Positions 1,790 to 26,910 of a stretch of 27,797 nt of DNA are shown here, one piece after another. The notes under the pieces are model-generated. The model did not search any database, was not told the DNA's origin, and saw only the letters and a list, made by a program, of their open reading frames with translations. Source of the DNA: a virus. A program made the translations under genes and the position numbers. Location: positions 1 through 27,797 of the IMG/VR virus record IMGVR_UViG_3300009537_000136, one strand, 5' to 3'. How positions within the stretch are numbered: the first letter of the stretch is position 1; each line of letters starts with the position of its first letter.

Positions 1790-2069
1790 AAAACCGTGGG
1801 TCGATGAACAACTCAAAGACCCGGAATTCTGTATCCTGCACGGCATGGAGGGGCTGAAGTTACGCATCGAGGAAGTTGAGGCTGAGCGGAATCAGTACAA
1901 AGAGGTCATCGAGAGAATCCACACAACCTCGCTGACTCACTCTACGATCTGGGAGTGGTGCGATGAGGTGTTGGAAGAGAATCACAAGATGGAAAAGATC
2001 CCGGAACCGGCTACTAAATGCCCTCGATGTGGCGCGATTTGGTGCGATGAGAGGAGTGCGAGATCATGA
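1782..2069 (+). CDS. Small protein with coiled-coil motif and Cys pair, third paralogue
   Basis: Encodes 95 aa from GTG 1782 (VSKKPWVDEQLKD), six bases after GGAGG. A GTG at 1761 in the same frame has no ribosome site and lies inside the direct repeat. The segment EAERNQYKEVIERIH (about residues 34-48) aligns with the DQLREAxxRIRDL helices of the 122 and 526 products. Near the C-terminus CPRCGAIWC forms a zinc-knuckle-like cluster, as in the 526 product. It overlaps the next gene by ATGA. Function is unknown. Confidence 0.65.
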   Translation: MSKKPWVDEQLKDPEFCILHGMEGLKLRIEEVEAERNQYKEVIERIHTTSLTHSTIWEWCDEVLEENHKMEKIPEPATKCPRCGAIWCDERSARS

Positions 2070-2668
2070 GCGATGTTCTGTATGTTTCGTTCTGTACGCC
2101 GGAGTACATCAAAGAGGCCGAAGGACTTGTTGCCTCAATGGGTGAGGTCGGGATCGACCGATACGAGATCTTGCATGTTCCCTCGTTCGGAAATTGGAAC
2201 CTGGCAACTCGGTTCAAGGCGGAGCTGATCTATCGATATCTATCCGCAGACGATCACGACTGGATCTGTTGGGTGGACGCCGATGCACGGTTTCGGAAGT
2301 ATCCGGCGTGGATTGACAGATTTGTTGTGAAAAACAAGGAGGTCGATGTCGTAGCAGCTCACCGCAGGAAGTCGGAGAATCCGGCGTTTCAGGCTGAACT
2401 TTTGAGCGGGACGATCCTGATAAACAGCTCGTGGACGTGCCTGGATCTCGTCAGAGAATGGATGTGGCTCTGCGTACAAGAGCCGGAACACATCAAAGAG
2501 CAGTCGCTACTCGATGTCGCCGCGTCGAAGGTGGGGATGCCTATCATGCCGCTCCCCCCGGAATACTGCTTCATCCACGATCTAATGAGGATTGACCATC
2601 CGGACGCGGATCCGGTGATCGAACATATGCAGGCAAGTCGGAGATTGAAAAAGGTAGTGAATAAATGA
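2066..2668 (+). CDS. Glycosyltransferase-like protein (GT-A fold)
   Basis: Encodes 200 aa from ATG 2066, with GAGGAG at 2051-2056. It has the hallmarks of nucleotide-sugar glycosyltransferases with a GT-A fold: an N-terminal strand (VLYVSFCTPEY), a metal-binding DAD triplet at 71-73 (ICWVDADARF), an acceptor-side LLSGTILIN block at 112-120, EQSLLD at 145-150, and a late EHMQASRR at 187-193 resembling the His-containing end of such proteins. At about 200 residues it is compact, a single catalytic domain without membrane segments. It starts a run of six sugar/methyl-transfer genes that ends at the terminase. Donor and acceptor cannot be read from sequence. Confidence 0.7.
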   Translation: MSDVLYVSFCTPEYIKEAEGLVASMGEVGIDRYEILHVPSFGNWNLATRFKAELIYRYLSADDHDWICWVDADARFRKYPAWIDRFVVKNKEVDVVAAHRRKSENPAFQAELLSGTILINSSWTCLDLVREWMWLCVQEPEHIKEQSLLDVAASKVGMPIMPLPPEYCFIHDLMRIDHPDADPVIEHMQASRRLKKVVNK

Positions 2669-2794: not shown

Positions 2795-3493
2795 ATGGTG
2801 GATGATTTTAACATTTGGGCCGTTTTTCCTTCGGCAGATCCAGAACGTGCGCGTAATGCAATCGAACGATGGTACAATCTCGGATATCATGTCTTAGCGC
2901 AAACGGACAAGGATTTTGGAATTCGAGAAAGCGCGTATATTATGGTTCGAGAATATAACGGATACTGGGAGTCAATAAATTTTATCATAGCGGGGATTTT
3001 ACACGAGAGGTCGGCTCTTCGGGCCGACTTCGTGGTTGCAATCGGTGACGACATGGAACCCGACCCCAACTTCACCGCGCAGGAGATCGCAATGCAGATG
3101 TATGAACACTTCGGCGACGATCCCGGTGTCATGCAACCGTGCGGCGATCCACAAGGGAAGGACGCAACAGGACAGCCAGCAGCAGCGAGGATCTGCGGGA
3201 GCCCATGGTTCAATCGTGCATGGATCGACCGGGCGTATGGGGGCAACGGGCCCTGTCCCCCTTACTACCGGCAATTTTACGGGGACGAGGAAATCAAATA
3301 TGTTTCCGAAATGCTCGGCTGTCTCTGGATGCGACCCGACCTCACGCAGTATCATCTGCACTGGTCGTGGGGGCATAGCCAGAGGACAGAGTACCAGACC
3401 GAAAATCAAAAGTACTGGAAGCAGGATCAAGAAACATTCATGGGTCGAAAAGAGAAAGGATTCCCCGGTCATGAGCTACTCCCAAGGGGCTGA
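2795..3493 (+). CDS. Glycosyltransferase, GT2-like
   Basis: Encodes 232 aa from ATG 2795, with AAGGGTGG about 6 nt upstream. The fold pattern is GT-A: an N-terminal strand (FNIWAVFPSADPERA), then DFVVAIGDDMEPD (residues 78-90) with a GDDM metal-binding motif, and a downstream FYGDEEI (161-167), which fits the acidic catalytic-base position. YHLHWSWGH (186-194) supplies the late His/Trp motif of this group. The first ~200 nt are visibly richer in A+T than neighbouring genes, a mild sign of mosaic origin. It overlaps the next gene by 23 nt. Confidence 0.7.
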   Translation: MVDDFNIWAVFPSADPERARNAIERWYNLGYHVLAQTDKDFGIRESAYIMVREYNGYWESINFIIAGILHERSALRADFVVAIGDDMEPDPNFTAQEIAMQMYEHFGDDPGVMQPCGDPQGKDATGQPAAARICGSPWFNRAWIDRAYGGNGPCPPYYRQFYGDEEIKYVSEMLGCLWMRPDLTQYHLHWSWGHSQRTEYQTENQKYWKQDQETFMGRKEKGFPGHELLPRG

Positions 3494-4085
3494 AGAAGAA
3501 ACCATACTCGAAATCTTCAACGGCTATATCTCCGAAAGCGGCCCCCCGTGGCTCCTCGACATCGGATGCTACGACGGAAAAACCTTCTCGAACTCCCTCG
3601 CCCTGATCGAACAAGGGTGGAATGCCCTTCTCGTTGACGCCAGTCCGCGAGCATTCTCGGCAGCCGTTGAACTGCACAAGGACAATCCGAACGTCCAGCT
3701 CCTCTGCGCGGCAGTGTCTACCTCGTCCGGGATCATCGAGCTTCAGGAATGCGCCGATGCCGTCAGCTCCACCGAGGTCGGAAACGTCAAGACGTGGGCA
3801 GACAACGGAACGCAGTTCTGGCCGATCTTCGTCCAAGCTGTTACACTCCACGACATCATAAACCGGTTCGGGGGGCCGTGGGACTTCGTCAATATCGACG
3901 TCGAAGGGACCAGCCTTCATCTGTTCCACGAACTCATGAACATTGAAGAAACGTCCGGATGGCCATCCGCTATTTGTGTTGAACATGATGGGTACAGCGT
4001 GGAAATTGCTGAACGATCATCAAAACGAGGATTTTCAACCCGGTTCCTCGATGGGAACAATATCATCATTGCGAGGAAGCCATGA
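3471..4085 (+). CDS. FkbM-family SAM-dependent methyltransferase
   Basis: I place the start at ATG 3471 (MSYSQGAEEETIL), with AAAGGA at 3455-3460. The open frame upstream is a shadow of the preceding glycosyltransferase gene. The 204-aa product has the FkbM layout: LLDIGCYDGKTFSNS (28-42) as SAM-binding motif I, LLVDASP (53-59) as the acidic ribose-contacting loop, then DFVNIDVEG (138-146), the signature NIDVEG block. FkbM proteins usually O-methylate sugars or polyketides. Methylation of a glycan made by the neighbouring transferases is the likely role. It ends in ARKP and overlaps the next gene by ATGA within a second junction motif. Confidence 0.8.
   Translation: MSYSQGAEEETILEIFNGYISESGPPWLLDIGCYDGKTFSNSLALIEQGWNALLVDASPRAFSAAVELHKDNPNVQLLCAAVSTSSGIIELQECADAVSSTEVGNVKTWADNGTQFWPIFVQAVTLHDIINRFGGPWDFVNIDVEGTSLHLFHELMNIEETSGWPSAICVEHDGYSVEIAERSSKRGFSTRFLDGNNIIIARKP
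4071..4085 (+). promoter_or_regulatory. Second type of gene junction, copy 1
   Basis: GCGAGGAAGCCATGA combines the ARKP codons, a GAGGA ribosome site and an ATGA stop/start overlap. It matches 5310-5324 at 14 of 15 positions. Confidence 0.7.
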
Positions 4086-4804
4086 CTAAACGATGCGTCG
4101 TAACACTCGGAGTCGGAGCGTGGTATCCGATGGGTGCTCACCGGATGGAACAGTCCGCCGACATGGTGGGGTTCACCAAGGACGAAGATTCTGACGTAAT
4201 GATCTTCACAACCTATCCGGAAACATGCCCACCGTATCACGTCCGGCCATTTGCATTCAAGCCGTGGTGCTTCCGACAAGCCCAGAAGGCCGGGTACGAA
4301 CAGATCCTCTGGATGGACTCAAGCCACTGGTTCGTTCGACATCCACAACCGGTCTTCGACTGGATCAACGAGCACGGACATTACTTCATCCGTGATGGAT
4401 GGACGACGGGCGAATGGTGCAGTGACATCGCCCTCGAACCGCTCGGAATCACGCGCGAGGAGGCGTTCGAGATGCTCCACCTATGGGCCGGAATCATCGG
4501 ACTCGATCTCCGAAACGACGACGCCCGATGGTTCCTCGATGAGTGGGAGAAATACAGCGTGGACGATCGGATCTTCGGCGGGCCGGAGTCGCCGAGCGAA
4601 GGGTTCATTTCCGACTATCCCGGCGTGAGCGGTCACCGATACGACCAGACAGCAGCCTCCGTCCTGGTTCATCGTCGCAATTTGTCGTATCAAATGATGG
4701 GCGAGGCGTTCATGACGACGGACATCAAGACGGATCGTGAGGACGTATGCGTTATTGCCTGCGGCGGCGTGAGGGAGACCGATCTTGAACTTATACAGGG
4801 CTAG
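4082..4804 (+). CDS. Putative glycosyltransferase (nucleotide-sugar transferase-like)
   Basis: Encodes 240 aa from ATG 4082, coupled to the upstream gene by ATGA. After an N-terminal strand (CVVTLGVGAWY) comes HVRPFAFKPWCFRQAQKAGYEQILWMDSSHW (53-83), matching the GT-A pattern in which a substrate-loop Lys and helix precede a D-x-x metal motif. Here the motif is MDSS (78-81) in place of DxD. TGEWCSD (109-115) and GHRYDQTAAS (184-193) fit conserved acceptor-side blocks, the latter with an Asp-Gln pair typical of this superfamily. Because the second Asp of DxD is replaced, activity or metal use may differ. Donor and acceptor are unknown. Confidence 0.6.
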   Translation: MTKRCVVTLGVGAWYPMGAHRMEQSADMVGFTKDEDSDVMIFTTYPETCPPYHVRPFAFKPWCFRQAQKAGYEQILWMDSSHWFVRHPQPVFDWINEHGHYFIRDGWTTGEWCSDIALEPLGITREEAFEMLHLWAGIIGLDLRNDDARWFLDEWEKYSVDDRIFGGPESPSEGFISDYPGVSGHRYDQTAASVLVHRRNLSYQMMGEAFMTTDIKTDREDVCVIACGGVRETDLELIQG

Positions 4805-5324
4805 ACCGTGGAATCTTCAATGGTGGCTGAACCTCATTGTTCGCCGACGTATCAGGAAGTTCGTCCGACGATGCACCGCCGAGGGGATCTTCTCCGCCCC
4901 GATCCTCGACGCGGGCTGCGGATACCGATCGAGCTACCCGGAGATACAGATCCAGCCCTACCACACTCTCGACCTCGCCGCCGAACTCAAACCCGATTAC
5001 GTCGGTGACATCTGCAACATGCTCGGCATTCCCGACAACCGATACCGATCCATCGTCTGTACCGAAGTGCTCGAACACGTACGCGGACCCATCGCAGCCC
5101 TCGAAGAATGCTGGCGAGTCCTCCAGCCGGGAGGCTCCATCGTCATTACAACGCCGTTCTGGTATCCGATCCACGAGAAGCCTTATCAGGAAGACCACTG
5201 GCGATTCACCGAAACAGGGATCAAGATCCTTCTTGAAAGAGCGGGGTTCACGGACATCAAAACCGAAAACGCCGGTCGGAAGCTCAGGCCGACGGGAGTC
5301 TTTACTGTCGCGAGGAAACCATGA
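4785..5324 (+). CDS. Class I SAM-dependent methyltransferase (Methyltransf_11-like)
   Basis: Encodes 179 aa from TTG 4785, with GAGGGAGA at 4771-4778 and a 20-nt overlap with the upstream gene. No ATG or GTG start leaves motif I intact. The sequence shows ILDAGCGYRSS (40-50, motif I), TLDLAAELKPDYVGDIC (61-77, motif II region), VCTEVLEHV (91-99, motif IV with the EVLEHV signature) and LQPGGSIVITTPF (113-125, motif V/VI). The N-terminal NLYRARPWNLQWWLNLIVRR is an aromatic/basic helix. It ends in ARKP through the second junction motif. A glycan or small-molecule substrate is inferred from its neighbours. Confidence 0.8.
   Translation: MNLYRARPWNLQWWLNLIVRRRIRKFVRRCTAEGIFSAPILDAGCGYRSSYPEIQIQPYHTLDLAAELKPDYVGDICNMLGIPDNRYRSIVCTEVLEHVRGPIAALEECWRVLQPGGSIVITTPFWYPIHEKPYQEDHWRFTETGIKILLERAGFTDIKTENAGRKLRPTGVFTVARKP
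5310..5324 (+). promoter_or_regulatory. Second type of gene junction, copy 2
   Basis: GCGAGGAAACCATGA: end of one methyltransferase gene (ARKP) fused to the ribosome site and start of the next. Compare 4071-4085. Confidence 0.7.
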
Positions 5325-6325
5325 AACAGGAGATTCCGTCCTTCAGCTCGTATCAGACGCTTGAGCGCAAACTGCATGGTCCCGGCGCACCGAACCGAAA
5401 CATCCATGATCGAATTATCGAGTGCGGCTTGAGTGACTACATGGACGAGGACTCCGCCGTTCTCGACCTCGGCTGCAATCGAGGATACTTCGGCATCGCA
5501 ATGTCCGGAAAGATCAAGAGCTACACCGGCGTCGAAGTGTCCTCCGAGATCGAATTCGGAATCAAGGAGGCTGAACAAAGAAATATAAAAAACTGTGAAT
5601 ATGTACGAAGCACGATTGAGGAATTTTCGGTGAACAACGAAAAAACCTACGATCTAATTCTTTCGCTCGCCGTGATTGCATATCTCGAGTGGGACATGCC
5701 GAAGCTTTCTGAATGGTTGGAATCGATTTGCAATCCGAATGCCATCGTAATAGTTGAGGGACACCCCGATGGATACATGGGAGAGCCGGATAGATGCCTT
5801 AACCCCTTGATCGACGCAATGAAGTACAGATCCGTGGAAGTCAAGCGATTCAATACTTTCGATAGGGGGATGAAGAGATCCATAGTTCACTTCCGTATGC
5901 CGTTTAGTTCCGGCATGGCATCTCGTATATTTCGGGACGGTGAGACGATCACAAAACTGTATCGCCACGAATCCGAAAGGGAGGAACAGGTGATATGTCA
6001 TCATCGAAAAAACGAGGCCATTGCATACCAAGCCCTCGAAGGATGTTCGGGTTTCCCTCGAATCGAATCGATTGACGATTATTCCATCGTCATGAATTAC
6101 GTCGGCGAGCCCGTAACGCCGGACACACTTCCGTCCGACTGGCGCGAGCAGATCCGGCGGATCGAATCGGAAATGGATGCTCGTGGAATATGGCACGCGG
6201 ACGCTAAGACGAACAATATATGCGTCCTCGATGGGAAGTTGACCCTGGTCGACCTCGGCATGTTTCACCGATCCAGCGACAGATATACGAGCCCGATAAA
6301 ACACATAGAGGGGATGCTTAAATGA
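5321..6325 (+). CDS. Methyltransferase-kinase fusion protein
   Basis: Encodes 334 aa from ATG 5321. Residues 1 to about 190 form a class I methyltransferase: VLDLGCNRGYFGIAM (47-61, motif I), YTGVEVS (68-74, acidic motif II), YDLILSLAVIAYLEW (110-124, motif IV region). Residues ~200-330 form a small kinase fold: RDGETITKLY, with K212 at the beta-3 Lys position, E232 in KNEAIAYQALE as a candidate helix-C Glu, a hinge-like SIVMNYVGEP (255-264), the catalytic loop HADAKTNN (292-299, exact HxDxKxxN) and LVDLGMF (309-315, DxG metal motif). A Gly-rich loop is not clear. The pieces share one uninterrupted frame and catalytic residues are intact, so both domains may be active. Phosphorylation and methylation of one sugar acceptor is a reasonable guess. 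Overlaps the next gene by ATGA. Confidence 0.75.
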   Translation: MKQEIPSFSSYQTLERKLHGPGAPNRNIHDRIIECGLSDYMDEDSAVLDLGCNRGYFGIAMSGKIKSYTGVEVSSEIEFGIKEAEQRNIKNCEYVRSTIEEFSVNNEKTYDLILSLAVIAYLEWDMPKLSEWLESICNPNAIVIVEGHPDGYMGEPDRCLNPLIDAMKYRSVEVKRFNTFDRGMKRSIVHFRMPFSSGMASRIFRDGETITKLYRHESEREEQVICHHRKNEAIAYQALEGCSGFPRIESIDDYSIVMNYVGEPVTPDTLPSDWREQIRRIESEMDARGIWHADAKTNNICVLDGKLTLVDLGMFHRSSDRYTSPIKHIEGMLK

Positions 6326-7158
6326 AACTGATCGGCATGATGCTGGCTCGGAATGAGGGGTGGATTATCGGGTATTCGGCGCGGGTGGCGCTGGAGTGGT
6401 GTGACCATTTGATTTTCTATGGCCACAACTGCACGGACGAAACAGCTGATAAATTGCCGGGACATAGAACAACACACCGATGGATTAGCAGTTCGAATTG
6501 GGACGAAATGAAAATCCGCCAAGACATGCTCGAACTCGGAAGAAAGGAAGAAGGCACCCACTTCGCAATCATCGACGCCGATGAAATCGTCACCAAGAAC
6601 CTGTCCCCCGATTTCATACGATCAGAATTCGAGGCGCTCGGCCAAGGGCAGATACTGAACCTTCCGATGATCCCCGTGTGGAGAGGATTCGACAAGCATC
6701 GGGTTGACCCGTGTGTGTGGACCCGCTCAAAGATCACGGTCGGATTCTGCGATCATCCCGACCTCTGCTATCAGGACCGGGACGGATACCAGCACCACAA
6801 CCGACCGCCGAAGAACTATCAGGTATCCGTGAATGCCTCTCCGATATCGGGTGGTGTTCTCCATTGCCAGTGGGCGTGGTGGCGCAGAGTCCTTGCAAAG
6901 CATATCTGGTATCGAATGATGGAACACGGCCGCTGGCCCGGACGGGAGACCGTCGAGCAGCTCAACCGCAAGTACGACCAGGCCCTTGACGAAACCGGAC
7001 TGAAACTTGAGGCACTGCCGTATGAATGGCACTGGCCGGAGTACGAGTCATTCCTCGACACGTCTTCAGAAAGCACTTGGCATGAAGAGGAGATTAAGCG
7101 TATGCTGGATGAACACGGGCGGGAGTATTTCGAGGGGTTGGATCTGAGGGGGTTTTAA
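6322..7158 (+). CDS. Glycosyltransferase family 2-like protein
   Basis: Encodes 278 aa from ATG 6322. The N-terminus LIGMMLARNEGWIIGYS (3-19) is the classic start of GT2-like enzymes that begin with a strand and ARNE. HFAIIDADEIV (80-90) carries the DxD motif within DADE. A later segment with HCQWAWWRRVLAK (181-193) provides the His/Trp block often seen in related transferases. The C-terminal third is charged and helical (YEWHWPEYESFL). It closes the sugar island, and its stop (TAA 7156-7158) shares a base with the terminase small-subunit start. Like its neighbours it has no signal peptide or membrane segment. Confidence 0.75.
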   Translation: MKLIGMMLARNEGWIIGYSARVALEWCDHLIFYGHNCTDETADKLPGHRTTHRWISSSNWDEMKIRQDMLELGRKEEGTHFAIIDADEIVTKNLSPDFIRSEFEALGQGQILNLPMIPVWRGFDKHRVDPCVWTRSKITVGFCDHPDLCYQDRDGYQHHNRPPKNYQVSVNASPISGGVLHCQWAWWRRVLAKHIWYRMMEHGRWPGRETVEQLNRKYDQALDETGLKLEALPYEWHWPEYESFLDTSSESTWHEEEIKRMLDEHGREYFEGLDLRGF

Positions 7159-7772
7159 TGTCAACCAAGCTCACCGAAAAACAGAAACGATTTTGCCTTG
7201 AGTATTTGATTGACTTCAATGCAACTCAAGCCGCTGTCCGCGCTGGCTACTCAAAGAAGACATCAAAACAGATTGGATCTGAAAACTTGTCCAAACCTGT
7301 CTTGCAAGAGTTCTTGGCTAAAAAGGTAACGAGAGTCAACGAAAAGCTCGAACTCACCGTCGAACGAATCCTCGAAGAACAGATGCGACTTGCATTCGTT
7401 GACACGTCAAAGTTGTTTGATGAAGACGGCAACCTTATTCCGATTAACGAACTGCCCGAAGACATCACAAGGGCAATCTCATCAGTAAATATTGAACAGA
7501 TCTCACTCACAGATGACAAGGGAGGCGAAACCGTCACTAGGAAATTTCGATACAAATTATGGGACAAGAAGGATGCCCTTGCTAAACTCATGCAATATAT
7601 GGGAATGCTGGTCACCAAGAATGAACATTCCGGCCCCAACGGCGAACCCATCCGAACAGAAACAAAGACCGAAGCCACCATCAACTTGAAGAACCTCAGC
7701 GATGACGAACTTAAAAATCTCAGACAGATCCTTGGTCGAACTCGCTTCGAACATTTCGGAAGCCGCAATTGA
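7158..7772 (+). CDS. terS: Terminase small subunit
   Basis: Encodes 204 aa from ATG 7158. The N-terminus KLTEKQKRFCLEYLIDFNATQAAVRAGYSKKTSKQIGS is the helix-turn-helix typical of Terminase_2 (P27/XtmA-type) small subunits, which recognise packaging sites and load DNA onto the large subunit. The middle contains the usual RILEEQMRLAFVDTSKLFDEDG segment, where a DxxxLFDxxG motif is common. The C-terminus is polar and ends with basic residues. The GAGGGGG run at 7146-7152 supplies the ribosome site. It lies directly upstream of, and overlaps by 71 nt, the large-subunit gene. Confidence 0.9.
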   Translation: MSTKLTEKQKRFCLEYLIDFNATQAAVRAGYSKKTSKQIGSENLSKPVLQEFLAKKVTRVNEKLELTVERILEEQMRLAFVDTSKLFDEDGNLIPINELPEDITRAISSVNIEQISLTDDKGGETVTRKFRYKLWDKKDALAKLMQYMGMLVTKNEHSGPNGEPIRTETKTEATINLKNLSDDELKNLRQILGRTRFEHFGSRN

Positions 7773-9240
7773 TCGGGAGCTGTGCGGACGGAAACTCAAG
7801 CCGTTCATCGAGGCGGCATGGCATGTGGTCGAGCCAGGCCGACAGTTTGTTGACAACTGGCACATCGACGCGATCGCCGACCACCTCGAAGCCGTTCGAT
7901 CCGAACAGATCCGGAACCTTGTCATCACCATGCCGCCCCGGCATATGAAATCACTGACCGTCTCGGTGTTCTTCCCGGTCTGGTGGTGGACGACCGAGCC
8001 GCACATCCAGTTTCTTTATTCCTCGTACTCCCAGATCCTCGCGACGCGAGACAGCTTGAAGTGCCGGCGGATCGTTCAGCACCCATGGTTTCAAGCCCGA
8101 TGGGGGGACGTCTTTTCAATGACCGGGGATCAGAACTTGAAGATGAGGTTCGAGAACGATCAAAGCGGATATCGGATCGCAACGAGCGTGGGCGGGACCG
8201 CGACGGGGGACGGAGGCGACGTCGTCGCCTGTGATGATCCGCACAACATAAAAGATGCAGAGTCCGAGGCGATCCGAGGCAGCACCGTGGACTGGTGGGA
8301 TCAGGTTATGAGTACTCGACTCAACGATCCGAAGACCGGGCGCCGCATCGTCATCCAGCAGAGGACGCACGAGGAAGATCTGGCCGGGCATTTGATCGAA
8401 AAGGGCTGGACGGAGCTGAGGCTTCCGGCGGAGTTTGAGCCGGAGCATCGGTGCATAATCGATGTAACCGGATTCAAGGATCCACGGACTGAACGAGATG
8501 AACTGCTATGGCCGGAACGCATGGGTCGCGAAGACCTCAACGAGCTGAAGCTCGACCTCGGCCCGTACGGTTCAGCCGGTCAGCTCCAACAACGGCCCGC
8601 CCCGCTCGAAGGCGGGATATACAAGCGGGAATGGATTCGGGAGTTTCAATGGGATGAAGGCAACCCGGTCGTTGACGGGAAGACGTATCCGATCAAGAAC
8701 ATGATCCGCGTTGGGTTCGTCGATCTTGCCGCTAGTATGCGGGAGTCGGCGGACTTCACGAACATCGACATCTACGCGGGGGAACGAGCGACCAAACGCT
8801 TGTTCAAGCTCCACGAGATCAACGCTCGGATGGAGGCACCGGAGATCCTGACGACTCTTGAGCAGATCCGGGACGATTACGGGCTGGCAAAGATCTTCAT
8901 CGAGTCCGCAGGGTTCCAGCTCGCATTCTGTCAGCTTGCCAGGCGAGCAGGACTTCCGATCGAGGAGCTCAAAGCCGATCGGGACAAGATCGCTCGCGCC
9001 CTCGGAGCGGTCCCCCTATGGTCTCGCGGTCTGTTCTGGGTTCCGGCGCATGCCGATTGGAGGGTGGCCCGCGACCGGGAACTGTTCACGTTCCCGAACG
9101 TCAAGCACGATGATCGATGCGATACCGAAGCATATGCCTGTATCTGGTGGCAGAATATCATTCGACGGACTCGGCCCATGACAGATGCAGCGAGAAACGG
9201 CCATACATCCACGGCGAATCCTCTTCGGGGGATGATATGA
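7702..9240 (+). CDS. terL: Terminase large subunit (ATPase and nuclease)
   Basis: Encodes 512 aa if it starts at ATG 7702. That start overlaps the small subunit by 71 nt and has no strong ribosome site, so a later start near residue 10-30 is possible. The ATPase domain shows VITMPPRHMKS (74-84, Walker A in the PPRHxKS form), VVACDDP (174-180, Walker B) and RIVIQQRTHEEDLAGHL (215-231, coupling motif III). The RNase H-like nuclease domain shows GFVDLAAS (338-345), IESAG (400-404) and KHDDRCDTEAYA (468-479), giving the acidic triad. The length is normal for Terminase_6-type motors. It cuts concatemers and pumps DNA into the prohead through the portal. Confidence 0.95.
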   Translation: MTNLKISDRSLVELASNISEAAIDRELCGRKLKPFIEAAWHVVEPGRQFVDNWHIDAIADHLEAVRSEQIRNLVITMPPRHMKSLTVSVFFPVWWWTTEPHIQFLYSSYSQILATRDSLKCRRIVQHPWFQARWGDVFSMTGDQNLKMRFENDQSGYRIATSVGGTATGDGGDVVACDDPHNIKDAESEAIRGSTVDWWDQVMSTRLNDPKTGRRIVIQQRTHEEDLAGHLIEKGWTELRLPAEFEPEHRCIIDVTGFKDPRTERDELLWPERMGREDLNELKLDLGPYGSAGQLQQRPAPLEGGIYKREWIREFQWDEGNPVVDGKTYPIKNMIRVGFVDLAASMRESADFTNIDIYAGERATKRLFKLHEINARMEAPEILTTLEQIRDDYGLAKIFIESAGFQLAFCQLARRAGLPIEELKADRDKIARALGAVPLWSRGLFWVPAHADWRVARDRELFTFPNVKHDDRCDTEAYACIWWQNIIRRTRPMTDAARNGHTSTANPLRGMI

Positions 9241-10765: not shown

Positions 10766-11702
10766 ACTTGACCGGCTGTCGGATCGGTCGGTCCGAACGT
10801 TTGTCGAGGACATCAACGATCTGATCGCGTCTCACATCAGCGGTTCACCCGAACGGATGGACATCGCCGTTGAGAACCTCGCCGAGACTCTAAGCGCGAC
10901 CATGGCCCTCGCCGACCTGATCGGACGACGCCGGGCTATGCTCGAACTCAACAATTTTCAGAACCGCGGACTCATGCCGGATCGGAATATGGTCGTTCTT
11001 GATCGGGCGAATACAACGCCTTTGGTTGCAAATGTTCCTTTTCGTGAGGCATTCGAAAATCTGTTGAGCAAGATACCGATTGGAGTTGATGAACGCTTGG
11101 CTCGCATATTTGATGTTCGGACGCTCGGCGAGGCCGTTGCAGAAGCTTATTCCCGATCCAATGTATTTGCCCTCGCGGGAGCTGCCGATTCGGTGGTTGC
11201 CTCGAGGGTTCAATCTTTGATTCAGAGCTCGATCCTGAATGGCCTCCCCGCACCGACGGCGCAACAGGCGATTGCGAACCTCGGAGAATTCAGTCAGTCC
11301 TATTCCCGGACGGTGTATCGAACGAACCTGACCTCAGCCTATTCAGCCGGAAGGATTCAGACGGCCCTCGATCCGAATATCCGGCAGATTGCCCCCGCAC
11401 TCATGTTTGTGACACAGAGAGATTCGGACGTAAGGGCAGGTCGGCAACAGGACCACGGGGAGAATCACGCGGCCCTCGATGGAATGATCGCAGCCCCCGA
11501 CGATCCGATCTGGCGTGAATGGGCTCCCCCCCTTGGATACAACTGTCGATGTTCTCTGCGATTTGTCCCGATCCTCGAAGTCGAACGCAAGGGACTCCTC
11601 CTGAACGGACAGATGAGATCAGCATCTGCACCAGCCGGCGCGTCGAAAAACCCACGGTTTGGAAGACGTCCGGATTCAGCATTCTATCCGAGATCAGCAT
11701 GA
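10734..11702 (+). CDS. Minor head protein (Mu gpF / SPP1 gp7-like)
   Basis: Encodes 322 aa from ATG 10734. The C-terminal half matches the Phage_Mu_F family: SRTVYRTNLTSAYSAGRIQTALDP (191-214), then RDSDVRAGRQQDHGENHAALDGMIAAPDDPIWREWAPPLGYNCRCSLRFV (229-278) with the conserved His (H245) and CxC (271-273) before a strand. The N-terminal helical part binds portal in related phages. The protein is needed for head assembly and may be ejected with DNA in some relatives. It overlaps the portal gene and ends in an ATGA overlap with the next gene. Confidence 0.9.
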   Translation: MGNPLLHPERELDRLSDRSVRTFVEDINDLIASHISGSPERMDIAVENLAETLSATMALADLIGRRRAMLELNNFQNRGLMPDRNMVVLDRANTTPLVANVPFREAFENLLSKIPIGVDERLARIFDVRTLGEAVAEAYSRSNVFALAGAADSVVASRVQSLIQSSILNGLPAPTAQQAIANLGEFSQSYSRTVYRTNLTSAYSAGRIQTALDPNIRQIAPALMFVTQRDSDVRAGRQQDHGENHAALDGMIAAPDDPIWREWAPPLGYNCRCSLRFVPILEVERKGLLLNGQMRSASAPAGASKNPRFGRRPDSAFYPRSA

Positions 11703-12280
11703 GTGTTTCGACCGACGCGAAAAGCATTGAGAAGATGTTTGGTCTGTGGAGAGGAAGAGAGGCGGTCCTGATCGGAGGATCTCCCGAACTCGAATCGTTC
11801 AACTGGGATGTCCTCGAATTCCATCTCACCCTAGGACTGAACGCCGCATACATCGTCGGATCTCCGATTGTCGATGCCGTCATGATTAAAGATCGACGCC
11901 TCATCAACAATATCGAAACGATCGACATCCCCATGATCTACATCAAACGAGGCCCGACGGATGACCTCGGATGGGACAATTCATTCGGACTTATTGAACG
12001 CCGCGAGTGGAGCGAGAGTCTGGCTGATGGCGTGTACGTCGGAGACACGACGGCTGTGTCGGCCCTCAATTTTCTTCAGATTATTGGAGTGTCTCGAATC
12101 ATCCTGATCGGATTCTCCGGAAAGACCAAGGGCCATTGGCATCACGAATATCCTCTCGACTGGGAAGCCGATGATTACGAGAAACAGCGTGATGAGATCC
12201 GAGGGTTTTTGCGTCCTCAAGATTATATTTTGACCGTTGAACAGGCCGAGGAGTATCTTTCTTATCATGCAACATTCTAA
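11699..12280 (+). CDS. DUF115-like protein (putative sugar-transfer or nucleotide-binding)
   Basis: I start at ATG 11699, which overlaps the upstream stop; the open frame before it is a gpF shadow. The 193-aa product has VLIGGSPELESF (23-34), a Gly/Ser nucleotide-loop-like start, then LTLGLNAAYI (43-52) and TTAVSALNFLQIIGVSRIILIGFSG (117-141). This series resembles DUF115 (MptE/Maf-like) proteins found in phages and in flagellin or glycan modification loci. The following GHWHHEYPLDW (145-155) is His-rich and may bind metal. It sits inside the head operon, far from the sugar island, so it looks like an inserted accessory gene. Family assignment is by pattern only. Confidence 0.55.
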   Translation: MSVSTDAKSIEKMFGLWRGREAVLIGGSPELESFNWDVLEFHLTLGLNAAYIVGSPIVDAVMIKDRRLINNIETIDIPMIYIKRGPTDDLGWDNSFGLIERREWSESLADGVYVGDTTAVSALNFLQIIGVSRIILIGFSGKTKGHWHHEYPLDWEADDYEKQRDEIRGFLRPQDYILTVEQAEEYLSYHATF

Positions 12281-14138: not shown

Positions 14139-14180
14139 TCGAGAACAACCACAGGATCAACATTTGAGGAGATGTGAAAA

Positions 14181-14633
14181 ATGGCACTTACCGCATCAGT
14201 TCAGTACACCAAGCGGGAACCCGAATCGCAGTCGTTTGAGGTTGCGAACGGGGAGACGATCTACAACGGCGCGTACGTCGCCCTGAATACGGCGGGGTTT
14301 GCCGTGAACGTTGTGGACACAACCGCATTCGAGCCGGTCGGATTCGCAGTCGGATTCGACGCGGAGAACGCCGATCAAACCAACGTGACAGGAGATGGTA
14401 CGGATGCGTTCGAGGTCGCTGTAGACATCAGCGGAACGATCCTCGAAAACATCCCGGTCACTGGATTGAGTGGCCAGACGGATGTCGGGGCTCTGGTTTA
14501 TGCCACCGACGAGAACACCTTCACCCTGTCAGCAACCTCGAACATTCCGGCGGTCGGAGTGGTGACTCGATATGTGAGCAACACATCTGTTGATGTTCTG
14601 TTCTTCAGCTTCGAGCAGATGCGCGGTAACTGA
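14181..14633 (+). CDS. Head decoration protein (putative)
   Basis: Encodes 150 aa from ATG 14181, with GAGGAG 10 nt upstream. It is a beta-rich protein with no Cys, containing TIYNGAYVALNTAGFAVNVVDTTAFEPVGFAVGF in the first half and VGALVYATDENTFTLSATSNIPAVGVVTRYVS in the second. This matches small capsid-decoration proteins (DUF2190-type or Mu gp35-like), which have a 'YVALN... G VGYAT...' architecture and lie just before the capsid gene. It would bind the capsid surface and stabilise it. The last codons lie in a 16-nt tandem duplication. Confidence 0.75.
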   Translation: MALTASVQYTKREPESQSFEVANGETIYNGAYVALNTAGFAVNVVDTTAFEPVGFAVGFDAENADQTNVTGDGTDAFEVAVDISGTILENIPVTGLSGQTDVGALVYATDENTFTLSATSNIPAVGVVTRYVSNTSVDVLFFSFEQMRGN

Positions 14634-14648
14634 GATGCGCGGTAACTG
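14617..14648 (+). repeat. 16-bp perfect tandem duplication at the decoration-gene stop
   Basis: The unit AGATGCGCGGTAACTG occurs at 14617-14632 and again at 14633-14648. The first copy holds the last codons (MRGN) and most of the stop codon; the second is untranslated. It looks like a recent slippage event. Confidence 0.85.
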
Positions 14649-14679
14649 ATCCGAAAACCCCGAATAATGGAGAAACACA

Positions 14680-15669
14680 ATGCCGAGTTCATTCAATCCA
14701 ATCCAAGGGGCTGAGGCCCTCACCCCGGCGATCCGACCCAACTTCGCCGACACGTACCGGAAGCGGTATCAGGGTGTTCTGGCAGACATGGGCTCCGTCA
14801 TGGAGCTGGCTGTTCCGTCCGACAAGTTCCAAGAGGTCTACGGATACCCCGAAACGGCGATGTATCCGCAGAGAGTTCCGGACGGCGAAGGTATGCCGTC
14901 GAAGAGCCATCGGTATCGCTCCTTCACGATCACGAACGTGACGTGGAAGGCGTCGGTCCAGTGGTTCCGGAATCAGGCTCTGTTCGACCAGCTCGGGACC
15001 GTGATCAAACAGGCCCGTCAGGCGGGCGAGAACTTCGCGAACCTACCGGAAGAGGTGTTTTTCCAAGTCATCCAGCAGCAGACGAACGCTCGTCTCCTGC
15101 GGACGATTCCGAACGCCCCGGATGGTGCAGCGATCTACGCGACCACAGACGGAGCCGGATCAAACCGATTTGGTGTGAGTTCCGGGAACCTGGTCACGGG
15201 TACGGGCGTGGCGACGAGCGAAGCGATCCGAACGGATTATTTCTCGGCGATCACTCAGTTTGCCCTCATGCAGGACACCGAAGGCCAGCCCTTGCTTCCG
15301 GCCAACATCCTCGATCAGGGTTTCACCCTGTTCTACAACGCATCCAACGAGAAGATCGTCTCGGAAGCGTTCCTCCAGCTCCGATCTCTCGCCGGTTCTG
15401 TCGTTCCGACGAATATCGTGCAGGATGCGAATAAGGTTCCGCGACTGGTCGGAACACAGCGGATCACGGACAACGATATGTACGTCTTCGCCAATGGCGT
15501 CGATACCAAGGCCGTGATCGAACAGGTTGCGAGTCCTCTCGAAGAGATGCCGTCGAACGTCGGCAACTCCGACTTCGCTCGCGACTACGATGTCGAGTCG
15601 TTCAATTATAAGGCCGTCCGAGGTTACGGAGTGGGTCTTCCGTACGGAACGGTCAAGATCAATAACTAG
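14680..15669 (+). CDS. Major capsid protein (Mu gpT-like)
   Basis: Encodes 329 aa from ATG 14680, with GGAGA at 14669-14673. The N-terminus (IRPNFADTYRKRYQGV) and the block VPSDKFQEVYGYPETAMYPQRVPDGEGMPSKSHRYRSFTITNVTWKASVQWFRNQALFDQLG match the Mu-like major head subunit family, including its SF-T-I-x-N-x-x-(W)KASVxW motif. A later section (DNDMYVFANGVDTKAVIEQVASPLEE, about 264-289) fits the HK97-fold C-terminal domain. It forms the icosahedral shell after proteolysis. It follows scaffold and decoration genes, as in Mu-type morphogenesis clusters. Confidence 0.9.
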   Translation: MPSSFNPIQGAEALTPAIRPNFADTYRKRYQGVLADMGSVMELAVPSDKFQEVYGYPETAMYPQRVPDGEGMPSKSHRYRSFTITNVTWKASVQWFRNQALFDQLGTVIKQARQAGENFANLPEEVFFQVIQQQTNARLLRTIPNAPDGAAIYATTDGAGSNRFGVSSGNLVTGTGVATSEAIRTDYFSAITQFALMQDTEGQPLLPANILDQGFTLFYNASNEKIVSEAFLQLRSLAGSVVPTNIVQDANKVPRLVGTQRITDNDMYVFANGVDTKAVIEQVASPLEEMPSNVGNSDFARDYDVESFNYKAVRGYGVGLPYGTVKINN

Positions 15670-24567: not shown

Positions 24568-26910
24568 ATGCCGGGATGGGATAATGATGTTCTGGGTGGG
24601 CCGAAGCCATTACAAGATTGGTCTCAGCTTGCCATTGGCTCGAACGAATTCAGCTCGATGCTGGAGAAGGCCGGGCGGCTTGTCAACCGGAATATCGGTG
24701 ATGGAGAGGCCAGCCAGTGGGTTCCGGATGCGGAGTCCGGGGGCGTGACGGATGGATCGTTCCTGTTCCTCCGTCAGGATGCCAATGCGGGGGGATGGCG
24801 TCGGGGGCCGTGGCCTGTTTCGACGGATACGAAATCCACAGCACCCTTGAATCGGACGGCTTTTGATACCTATCCATCGGGGACGGTTCCGACGTTTGCA
24901 TTTCCGATCATCGACAAGACCTATGATCCAGCTATCGATATGTTCTATCGAGAGCAGCCGGACTACCACCCCGACTGGCCTCGAATTCCGGGCGGTATGT
25001 CCGGGTTCGTCACGGCGGCGGTGGACTATCAGAAGCAGGTTCCGATCTACCTCCACGGAGACCCTCGACTCGTAGCGGTGAATTTCGCGGGGGATCCTTT
25101 TTGCGGATCACTGGTTTGCGATCTGAATGCAGACGATGAGCTCGATACCGATCGATGCGCGAGACTGCAATCGGCGTGGAGGGTCGTTCTGACCCGGAAT
25201 GGGTGCGGAGATTTCAAGGTCACCGGCGCCCTGAACGGCCTCGCATGGCAGCTCGGATACAGCGGACAGGACAAGATTGCAGGACTCGGCATGACGTATG
25301 ACACCGAGAACATCCCGGCGGGATTCACAGGATCGGCGGCGGGTAGTGATCGTGGCATCGTCGGTCTGTTCGGGATGAAGGCATACGGGCCTTTTGATGT
25401 CGGGGACTACGTCGATCAGCACCAGATAGGCGTGACAGCAGACGGGGAGCCGATCAATTCCGGGCACATCACCACCGATGCGTATTTCCACGGCCATGGC
25501 GGCGATGCGCCGTTGCATTTTCAGGCTGCATTGTATCGAGAGCCTCCGAAGCAACCCCTCAAGACTCGCGTCCATCTCCGATACGATCCCAAGATAAAGC
25601 ATCCTCATGTATGCGGCGAGAAGGACGGAATGTGGCGCTGGATCGCCGAGGCCATGTTCGACATTCCCCCGACGGATCAACCCCCTCCTCCTCCGGGACC
25701 GGGACCAGGGCCAGGACCGGGTGGCGGTGGTGGTGGAGCGGGTGGAGGAGGAGCAGGCGGCGCAGGTGGAGGCCCGGGGCCAAAGCCGAAGCCTATCCCT
25801 GATTTCGAGACGCCGGGTCTGATTGGACCGGCAGAGATATTCCGACTCCTGTCGCAGGAGATGGAAGAAGCGTTTCGAAGTCGAGCCGTCGATACGCCAC
25901 CAGAGGCGTTCGGATCAACGACCGTCCAGACATCCTTCCCGGCGATCCTGATGCGCCCGACAGTCGCAAGCATAATGGAAGCGGACCTTCGATCGGATCG
26001 GAACCCGACCGATGAATCGATCGACTGGTACAACGCAACGGCACCCGTCACCCTCCGGATGGAGGGCTTCGGTCAAGTCGTCGGATCAACCCCGATCTAC
26101 ACTCAAGCACCCGGAGACGGTCGATTCCGACCGGGGACGTCGAACGGCGGAATGCTTTTCGTCAACCCCGAACTTGACCTCGCGGACTATGAAACGAGCT
26201 TTGAGCCGGATGAGATAACAAAATCCACATCGTACGTCGTCATGACTCCCGGCGTCAATTTGGGGTTCGGCCTCCCCGACCTGACCACAGGGGGCGTGAA
26301 ATCGGCCCATGTCCTGATCGGAGATATTGACACTCCGGCCAACCCCGGCCTTGAGTTCGCATGCGTGAACCACCTCGGAACGCAAAGCACGATCTGGAAA
26401 GCCGACTGCATCTCGGTGAACTATTACGACGACATCGTTCTGTATTTCGGCGACGACGTAGCAGACCGATCGGCACATTTCTTCGAGGCGTCAAGCGGAA
26501 ACTATGTCACGGATTTGACTTCGTTGAACTCGACGAACGTATGGGAGGTCCGTGGAGGGCTGACGGGATTCGAGAAAACCGATCCAGTATCGACACTGGA
26601 AACAGGCGGCTCGTTTGGTGCGACGGTAACGACGGTGACAGCCACGACCCCGTTGGACGCCTCATACTATTGCGTCTTAGTGAACAACTCCGCAGCGGCC
26701 AACATCCTCTTGCCAACATCCTCCACGAGTGCAAACCGGATCTATGTCATCAAGAAGATCAGTGCAACGGGCGGAGGCCGGACCGTCACGATTGTGCCGG
26801 CCACAATCGACGGGCAGGAGTACGTTGACGGGCAGACGACGCATGTGATAAACAAGCAGTACGACACGATTATGATTCAATGCGACGGATCAGACTGGTT
26901 TATAATCTGA
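24568..26910 (+). CDS. Tail/adhesion protein with long Pro-Gly hinge
   Basis: Encodes 780 aa from ATG 24568. Three parts are visible. Residues 1-370 are a globular domain with CGSLVCDLNADDELDTDRC (179-197), an acidic Asp-rich loop that could hold Ca2+, and several Trp-rich stretches. Residues 372-411 form a hinge of Pro/Gly repeats (QPPPPPGPGPGPGPG, then GGAGGGGAGGAGG) ending in KPKPIP. Residues 412-780 form a second domain whose end, NKQYDTIMIQCDGSDWFII, is a typical fibre C-terminus. A protein with a flexible linker between tail-anchored and exposed parts is likely. Confidence 0.55.
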   Translation: MPGWDNDVLGGPKPLQDWSQLAIGSNEFSSMLEKAGRLVNRNIGDGEASQWVPDAESGGVTDGSFLFLRQDANAGGWRRGPWPVSTDTKSTAPLNRTAFDTYPSGTVPTFAFPIIDKTYDPAIDMFYREQPDYHPDWPRIPGGMSGFVTAAVDYQKQVPIYLHGDPRLVAVNFAGDPFCGSLVCDLNADDELDTDRCARLQSAWRVVLTRNGCGDFKVTGALNGLAWQLGYSGQDKIAGLGMTYDTENIPAGFTGSAAGSDRGIVGLFGMKAYGPFDVGDYVDQHQIGVTADGEPINSGHITTDAYFHGHGGDAPLHFQAALYREPPKQPLKTRVHLRYDPKIKHPHVCGEKDGMWRWIAEAMFDIPPTDQPPPPPGPGPGPGPGGGGGGAGGGGAGGAGGGPGPKPKPIPDFETPGLIGPAEIFRLLSQEMEEAFRSRAVDTPPEAFGSTTVQTSFPAILMRPTVASIMEADLRSDRNPTDESIDWYNATAPVTLRMEGFGQVVGSTPIYTQAPGDGRFRPGTSNGGMLFVNPELDLADYETSFEPDEITKSTSYVVMTPGVNLGFGLPDLTTGGVKSAHVLIGDIDTPANPGLEFACVNHLGTQSTIWKADCISVNYYDDIVLYFGDDVADRSAHFFEASSGNYVTDLTSLNSTNVWEVRGGLTGFEKTDPVSTLETGGSFGATVTTVTATTPLDASYYCVLVNNSAAANILLPTSSTSANRIYVIKKISATGGGRTVTIVPATIDGQEYVDGQTTHVINKQYDTIMIQCDGSDWFII

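Follow-up and report, generated by a model that had tools for sequence, protein, structure and literature searches.

A compact methyltransferase-kinase fusion predicted in a glycan cassette of a tailed phage

Introduction

Why would a tailed phage encode, in one reading frame among glycosyltransferase genes, a methyltransferase followed by a kinase-fold domain, and what would the two activities act on? Bacterial WbdD terminates the O-antigen chain by adding a phosphate and then a methyl group on that phosphate (PMC3482155). The Klebsiella pneumoniae O7 terminator ORF6, also a methyltransferase-kinase, is the second one known to place a methyl-phosphate at the end of a glycan; its kinase resembles AmiN and differs from WbdD in sequence and predicted structure, and it carries a carbohydrate-binding domain and a coiled coil (PMC11231755). 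Because the kinase of the O7 terminator is a different one, methyl-phosphate chemistry exists in more than one form. Methyl-phosphate caps are known from a few bacterial O-antigens; in the papers searched, none was reported for phage particles and no discussion of WbdD-like proteins in phages was found. An earlier note on the phage gene analysed here had described a methyltransferase motif I and a kinase domain with HxDxKxxN, DLG, Lys and Glu in a single frame within a glycosyltransferase island, and had likened the protein to WbdD.

Results

The gene lies in a recurring glycan cassette

The window, i.e. the whole stretch of 27,797 bases that was analysed, is an entire IMG/VR contig. It belongs to a tailed phage, and genes for terminase, portal and capsid follow the cassette (Table 1). 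The gene in question (5321-6325, plus strand) starts with ATG, is open through all 334 codons and belongs to a series of closely overlapping, co-directional genes. Its first bases share ATGA (5321-5324) with the stop of the methyltransferase gene upstream, and its end runs into the glycosyltransferase gene that starts at 6322; these overlaps on both sides fit the expectation for a translated operon. Because about 85 loci of terminase relatives of the window phage are without a copy, the gene is an accessory gene of its phage.

Table 1. Features of the cassette in the window, and the reversed relative in phage L162
Feature	Position	Strand	Basis and remarks
Putative glycosyltransferase (WVDAD motif)	2066..2668	+	weak match
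Putative glycosyltransferase	2795..3493	+	weak match; relatives upstream of the methyltransferase/kinase pair in L160, L161
FkbM-like methyltransferase	3489..4085	+	Pfam below cut-off; relative over cut-off; relatives in L160, L161 cassettes
Putative glycosyltransferase (WMDSS)	4082..4804	+	motif resemblance; relative directly upstream of the pair in L160, L161
Second class I methyltransferase, Methyltransf_11/23	4785..5324	+	Pfam
Methyltransferase half, residues 1-192	5321..5896	+	Pfam, alignments, AlphaFold2; class I SAM fold
Fusion junction, ...CAC TTC CGT/ATG CCG TTT AGT...	5876..5910	+	alignment, DNA reading
Compact kinase half, residues 193-334	5897..6322	+	motifs, profile, AlphaFold2, alignment
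Glycosyltransferase family 2, Glyco_tranf_2_4 over cut-off	6322..7158	+	Pfam
Small and large terminase subunits; the structural block opens here, immediately downstream of the cassette	7158..9240	+	
L162 protein, 362 residues, kinase first, methyltransferase second	L162:5848-6936		both domains over Pfam cut-offs

As a query on its own, the 334-residue protein retrieved no close relatives in viral contigs, phage records or genomes, and the cassette proteins tried gave no match among 50,697 deposited phage records. An alignment of the kinase half and WbdD gave no match in viral contigs, whereas a full-length alignment of the protein and WbdDs identified three phage relatives (L160, L161 and L162) in the viral collection. 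In L160 and L161, the methyltransferase (33-36% identity to the window) and a compact kinase (about 29%) are encoded by two overlapping genes. Since L160 and L161 differ from one another (56% and 62% identity), their split is not a single error counted twice. In L162, the two domains are fused in reverse order; its methyltransferase has R-x4-R ahead of motif I, and the gene lies among structural genes just before a tail-fibre-like gene. The single-frame fusion is thus found again in WbdD and, reversed, in L162, while the two closest relatives, L160 and L161, are split. In total, the occurrence of both families in fused, adjacent and reversed arrangements is strong evidence that the two predicted activities act in one pathway, and their linkage is well supported by these sequences.

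Besides the pair, the window, L160 and L161 have in common relatives of the genes at 2795, 3489 and 4082 (E 1e-4 to 1e-28). A family-2 glycosyltransferase over the Pfam cut-off is present in the window and L160 cassettes, and L161 has a gene of similar sequence in the same place. The glycosyltransferase-island setting described in the earlier note is therefore borne out, in that phages otherwise unlike each other carry a glycosyltransferase/methyltransferase cassette around the pair; a single putative glycosyltransferase of the window passes the Pfam cut-off, the rest being recognised by weak matches and motif resemblance. Beyond the cassette genes, no other match between the window and the L160/L161 loci and no shared structural gene was detected, the window terminase was found in neither the L160 nor the L161 record, and the GC content is 54% in the window vs 38-39% in L160/L161. 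Because nothing else matches, the common property of the three is the cassette and not the phage. Profile searches with two unassigned cassette genes against solved structures gave no match.

Both halves retain catalytic residues

Residues 1-192 are a class I methyltransferase and residues 193-334 a kinase-fold domain. In the methyltransferase half, motif I (VLDLGCNRGYFGIAM) spans residues 47-61 and the domain passes Pfam cut-offs (Methyltransf_23, E=6e-9; Methyltransf_31, 1.6e-8; Methyltransf_25, 1.7e-7), in agreement with the earlier note; Pfam, AlphaFold2 and PDB matches all point to the Rossmann fold with motif I of class I SAM methyltransferases. The best PHROG match of this half is named tRNA methyltransferase. 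An identity as a DNA or tRNA enzyme was considered and rejected, as PHROG labels were its sole basis and were judged generic for the superfamily.

In an alignment using E. coli WbdD numbering, WbdD Y16, R31, R36 and R203 correspond to Y11, R26, R31 and R186 of the phage protein, and counterparts are present in all three phage methyltransferases of the window type (window, L160, L161) and in nearly all WbdDs. The Y16F and R203A mutations abolish the methyltransferase activity of WbdD, and R31 and R36 line its pocket (PMC3482155). A Y...R-x4-R signature upstream of motif I was found in 34 of 35 aligned WbdD/phage rows vs 2 of 53 control methyltransferases, for which 120 genomes had been sampled. 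The positions of WbdD H132 and H133, near the SAM methyl, are aligned with Ala120 and Tyr121; the second His is kept in L160 and L161, and the WbdD set is mostly HH and varies.

The kinase half contains HADAKTNN at 292-299 and DLG at 311-313, with K212 as the Lys, E232 as the Glu, D294 and N299 in HxDxxxxN, and D311 in DxG. By sequence alone, its Pfam matches are weak (APH, 0.0035; RIO1, 0.035; Pkinase, 0.088). The assignment becomes firm through the relatives, in which K212, E232, D294, N299 and D311 are kept: all five are common to every phage kinase relative and to 34 WbdD sequences (E232 to nearly all WbdDs). These shared residues, the WbdD profile described below and the AlphaFold2 model confirm the kinase domain that had been read from the motifs. 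The domain is not a complete kinase, however: the N-lobe and the catalytic loop are present, but the chain ends 21 residues past DLG and most of the C-lobe is absent. Because the separate kinases of L160 and L161 are just as short (156 and 155 residues), the short form is the usual size in the phage family. EBPR siphovirus 2 gp9 was considered as a kinase relative and rejected; gp9 is a peptidyl-tRNA hydrolase.

AlphaFold2, given 38 further aligned rows, returned a model of the 334-residue protein with a mean pLDDT of 87.8 and a pTM of 0.84; from the single sequence, the model was unusable (pLDDT 35). The kinase N-lobe, helix alpha-E, the catalytic loop and the subsequent hairpin are predicted with high confidence. 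The lack of an N-lobe or ATP pocket, which would have refuted the earlier note, is thus not seen, the modelled N-lobe containing the ATP-pocket Lys-Glu pair. In order, the modelled kinase has strands 202-206 and 209-213, helix C (219-238), strands 248-251 and 255-259, helix E (274-287), the catalytic loop, a hairpin (300-309) and a last helix (325-333). With its N-lobe and Lys-Glu pair, catalytic loop and DxG, the model has the elements of a compact protein-kinase-like fold. The top five PDB matches of the model were WbdD structures (E down to 1.5e-17), followed by NodS and other methyltransferases, a top rank that is partly built in since 33 of the aligned rows were of the WbdD family. The whole-chain TM-score reached only 0.48, which the differing hinge between the two domains and the lack of a C-lobe would lead one to expect.

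Over the full model, the best viral structure match was BFVD K7YUZ4 from Megavirus courdo11 (E=1.6e-17, 349 columns, 17% identity), which is possibly a methyltransferase-kinase fusion in a giant virus.

The protein resembles WbdD, but membership of the WbdD family is not supported

In a full-length tblastn search of plasmids, WbdD was the best match, with 94% coverage and 22% identity but an E value of 0.2. The alignment to Klebsiella WbdD is collinear across residues 1-313 (22% identity) and scored 113 vs 37 +/- 5 for shuffles. A profile made from 40 genome-derived WbdD proteins scored 50.7 bits against the whole protein and 13.1 bits against the kinase half alone, while 400 shuffles gave at most 3.5. 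Moreover, when the protein was compared with 13 WbdD-bearing genomes, WbdD, recognised by open-frame length and translation, was among the matches in 6 and was usually the top one.

Like WbdD of E. coli O9a and K. pneumoniae O3 (PDB 4AZS, 4AZW), which is also its best structural match, the phage protein has the methyltransferase and then the kinase in one chain and a glycan biosynthesis setting, and the catalytic K252, E278, D351, N356 and D369 of WbdD correspond to K212, E232, D294, N299 and D311. By contrast, it has 334 residues vs 708, shares about 20% identity, and lacks the C-terminal helix bundle, trimer helix and coiled coil, the next gene beginning at 6322; its kinase stops before a full (distal) C-lobe. 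For Y230 of the Gly-rich loop, a reliable counterpart is lacking, the alignment placing the methyltransferase residue H190 there; W355 is missing and the position of H132 is Ala. Its gene lies in a phage late gene block and not in an ABC-transporter O-antigen locus. WbdD depends on the helix bundle for full activity and for its polymer preference. Without this bundle, without a clear Y230 and with a shortened region past DLG, the phage protein is short of acceptor-side features of the WbdD kinase, which argues against a WbdD-type function.

Profiles built from the phage proteins only match other families better. With the phage-only methyltransferase profile, WbdD ranked only 15th (4e-4) behind generic methyltransferases, and against 398 genomes this profile gave nothing at 1e-10; with a profile from the four phage kinases only, Bud32 was the best PDB sequence match (E=2.5e-9). 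For this reason, and because the coiled coil, trimer helix, distal C-lobe and ABC-transporter O-antigen context are missing, we do not place the protein in the WbdD family, although on the evidence it would work like WbdD. Of the likeness proposed in the earlier note, the domain order, the best match by tblastn and structure, and the phosphate-methylation residues stand; membership of the WbdD family does not.

A Salmonella protein annotated as MetW (STM4500; L093:2965-4494) matched WbdD beyond the methyltransferase domain (query 34-297, 22.6%, E=2e-3) and may be another methyltransferase fusion.

The fusion junction

At the junction, M193 falls opposite the start Met of the separate L161 kinase (MPFSSGMAS vs MQLDKGMVS), and the retained ATG is closely followed by a TAG in another frame. 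One extra base before this ATG would stop the methyltransferase at the TAG within 11 nt and give an overlapping pair like that of L161, the overlap reading ATGCCGTTTAG in the window and ATGCAATTAG in L161. The window fusion may reflect a single base lost naturally or an error in sequencing. Taken further, these features would mean that the single frame arose through faulty sequencing or assembly, or through fusion very recently, and that the genes are really an overlapping pair as in L161. We consider this improbable: no stop interrupts the 334 codons, L162 and WbdD are fused as well, and a stop that near is not rare by chance. The functional pairing is in any case independent of the fusion state in the window contig.

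Discussion

Altogether, the sequences and the model demonstrate two apparently intact active sites of known fold (one fold by prediction), recurrently coupled, in a glycan cassette. We lean modestly towards the reading that the protein is a miniature bifunctional glycan-modifying enzyme, which phosphorylates a sugar and methylates the phosphate on a glycan built by the cassette, probably as a decoration of the virion. In this mechanism, the kinase half would transfer a phosphate from ATP to a hydroxyl of a sugar, the likeliest acceptor being the non-reducing end of a short glycan that the adjacent glycosyltransferases would assemble. The methyltransferase half would then use SAM to methylate that phosphate, giving a methyl-phosphate cap that would end or mask the glycan, i.e. 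the WbdD reaction carried out by a smaller enzyme that has no coiled-coil ruler. The sequential reaction on one substrate, the sugar acceptor and the virion target are what we infer. Since structural genes accompany these genes in every setting examined, and the window cassette heads the late structural genes, a virion protein is the likeliest carrier of the glycan; the main alternative is a host surface glycan.

On that alternative, the same chemistry would act on O-antigen, capsule or exopolysaccharide, and stopping growth of the glycan or hiding the receptor would prevent reinfection of the infected or lysogenic cell. Phage-encoded changes of surface glycans are common. WbdD itself caps an O-antigen chain by this chemistry (PMC3482155). 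However, in the window, L160 and L161 the cassette belongs to the late structural block, the reversed L162 enzyme has structural genes around it, and nearby in the window, which is a fragment, nothing was recognised as an ABC transporter, polymerase, integrase or repressor gene; we therefore regard a host glycan as an unlikely target.

A substrate other than a glycan is less likely still. The phage kinases are small with a reduced C-lobe like Bud32 (PRPK, of the KEOPS complex), although shorter still (about 140-156 residues), and the closeness of the phage-only kinase profile to Bud32, together with the name of the top PHROG match, could indicate a Bud32-like kinase/ATPase joined to a tRNA methyltransferase, for tRNA modification or counter-defence. 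Bud32 has no methyltransferase partner and works with Kae1 on tRNA, and no Kae1/TsaD partner was recognised in the window. Moreover, the PHROG labels are generic, the pair has glycosyltransferase and FkbM neighbours in the window, L160 and L161, and the phosphate-methylation residues of WbdD are kept. Finally, the early end of the chain, without the distal C-lobe of ordinary kinases, might suggest a catalytically dead or structural remnant and an enzyme that only methylates, but this is very unlikely because the K, E, D, N and D residues are all kept in four divergent phage kinases and the separate kinases are equally short, arguing that the short form is the norm and that the catalytic residues are under selection.

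The chemistry and the architecture of a methyl-phosphate-capping enzyme of the kind we favour are known; the size class, the arrangements and the setting are new. Compared with K. pneumoniae O7 ORF6, by its description, the phage protein has no room for the additional domains, and its APH match is weak. Mycobacteriophages Che8 and Rita encode their own glycosyltransferases and carry glycans covalently on capsid proteins, for which an immune-shielding effect has been reported (Freeman et al. 2023, cited in PMC11256854). Unlike the present cassette, those of Che8 and Rita are presented in the relevant part of PMC11256854 with no mention of a kinase-methyltransferase pair, and the hosts differ. 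The broader proposal, that phages have a module whose kinase fold (about 140-156 residues) ranks among the smallest, that this module is shuffled between fused, overlapping and reversed states in a mobile glycan cassette, and that it caps virion glycans with methyl-phosphate, is one that we advance tentatively, as possible but on balance rather doubtful. If it were true, phages would use the chemistry of O-antigen terminators with a much smaller enzyme, and virion glycosylation would extend from sugars and O-methyl groups to methyl-phosphate caps. The enzyme would also offer the simplest kinase-methyltransferase terminator for study, one that has no coiled-coil ruler, and would show the lower size of a working kinase. 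The recurring cassette provides a concrete target for glycan analysis.

Further observations on the locus

A relative of the putative glycosyltransferase at the start of the cassette (2066-2668) is encoded at 14151-14840 in phage L018, between the portal and minor head genes; the L018 terminase, portal and capsid are related to those of the window. Close to that position, the window has an open reading frame (11519-12280) between the minor head and protease genes that overlaps its neighbour and has no Pfam hit; by eye, we take it to resemble glycan-linked proteins of the DUF115 kind. In the tail region, the gene at 24568-26910 encodes a protein of 780 residues with a long Gly/Pro-rich stretch in its middle (GPGPGPGPGGGGGG), possibly a flexible hinge in a tail fibre.
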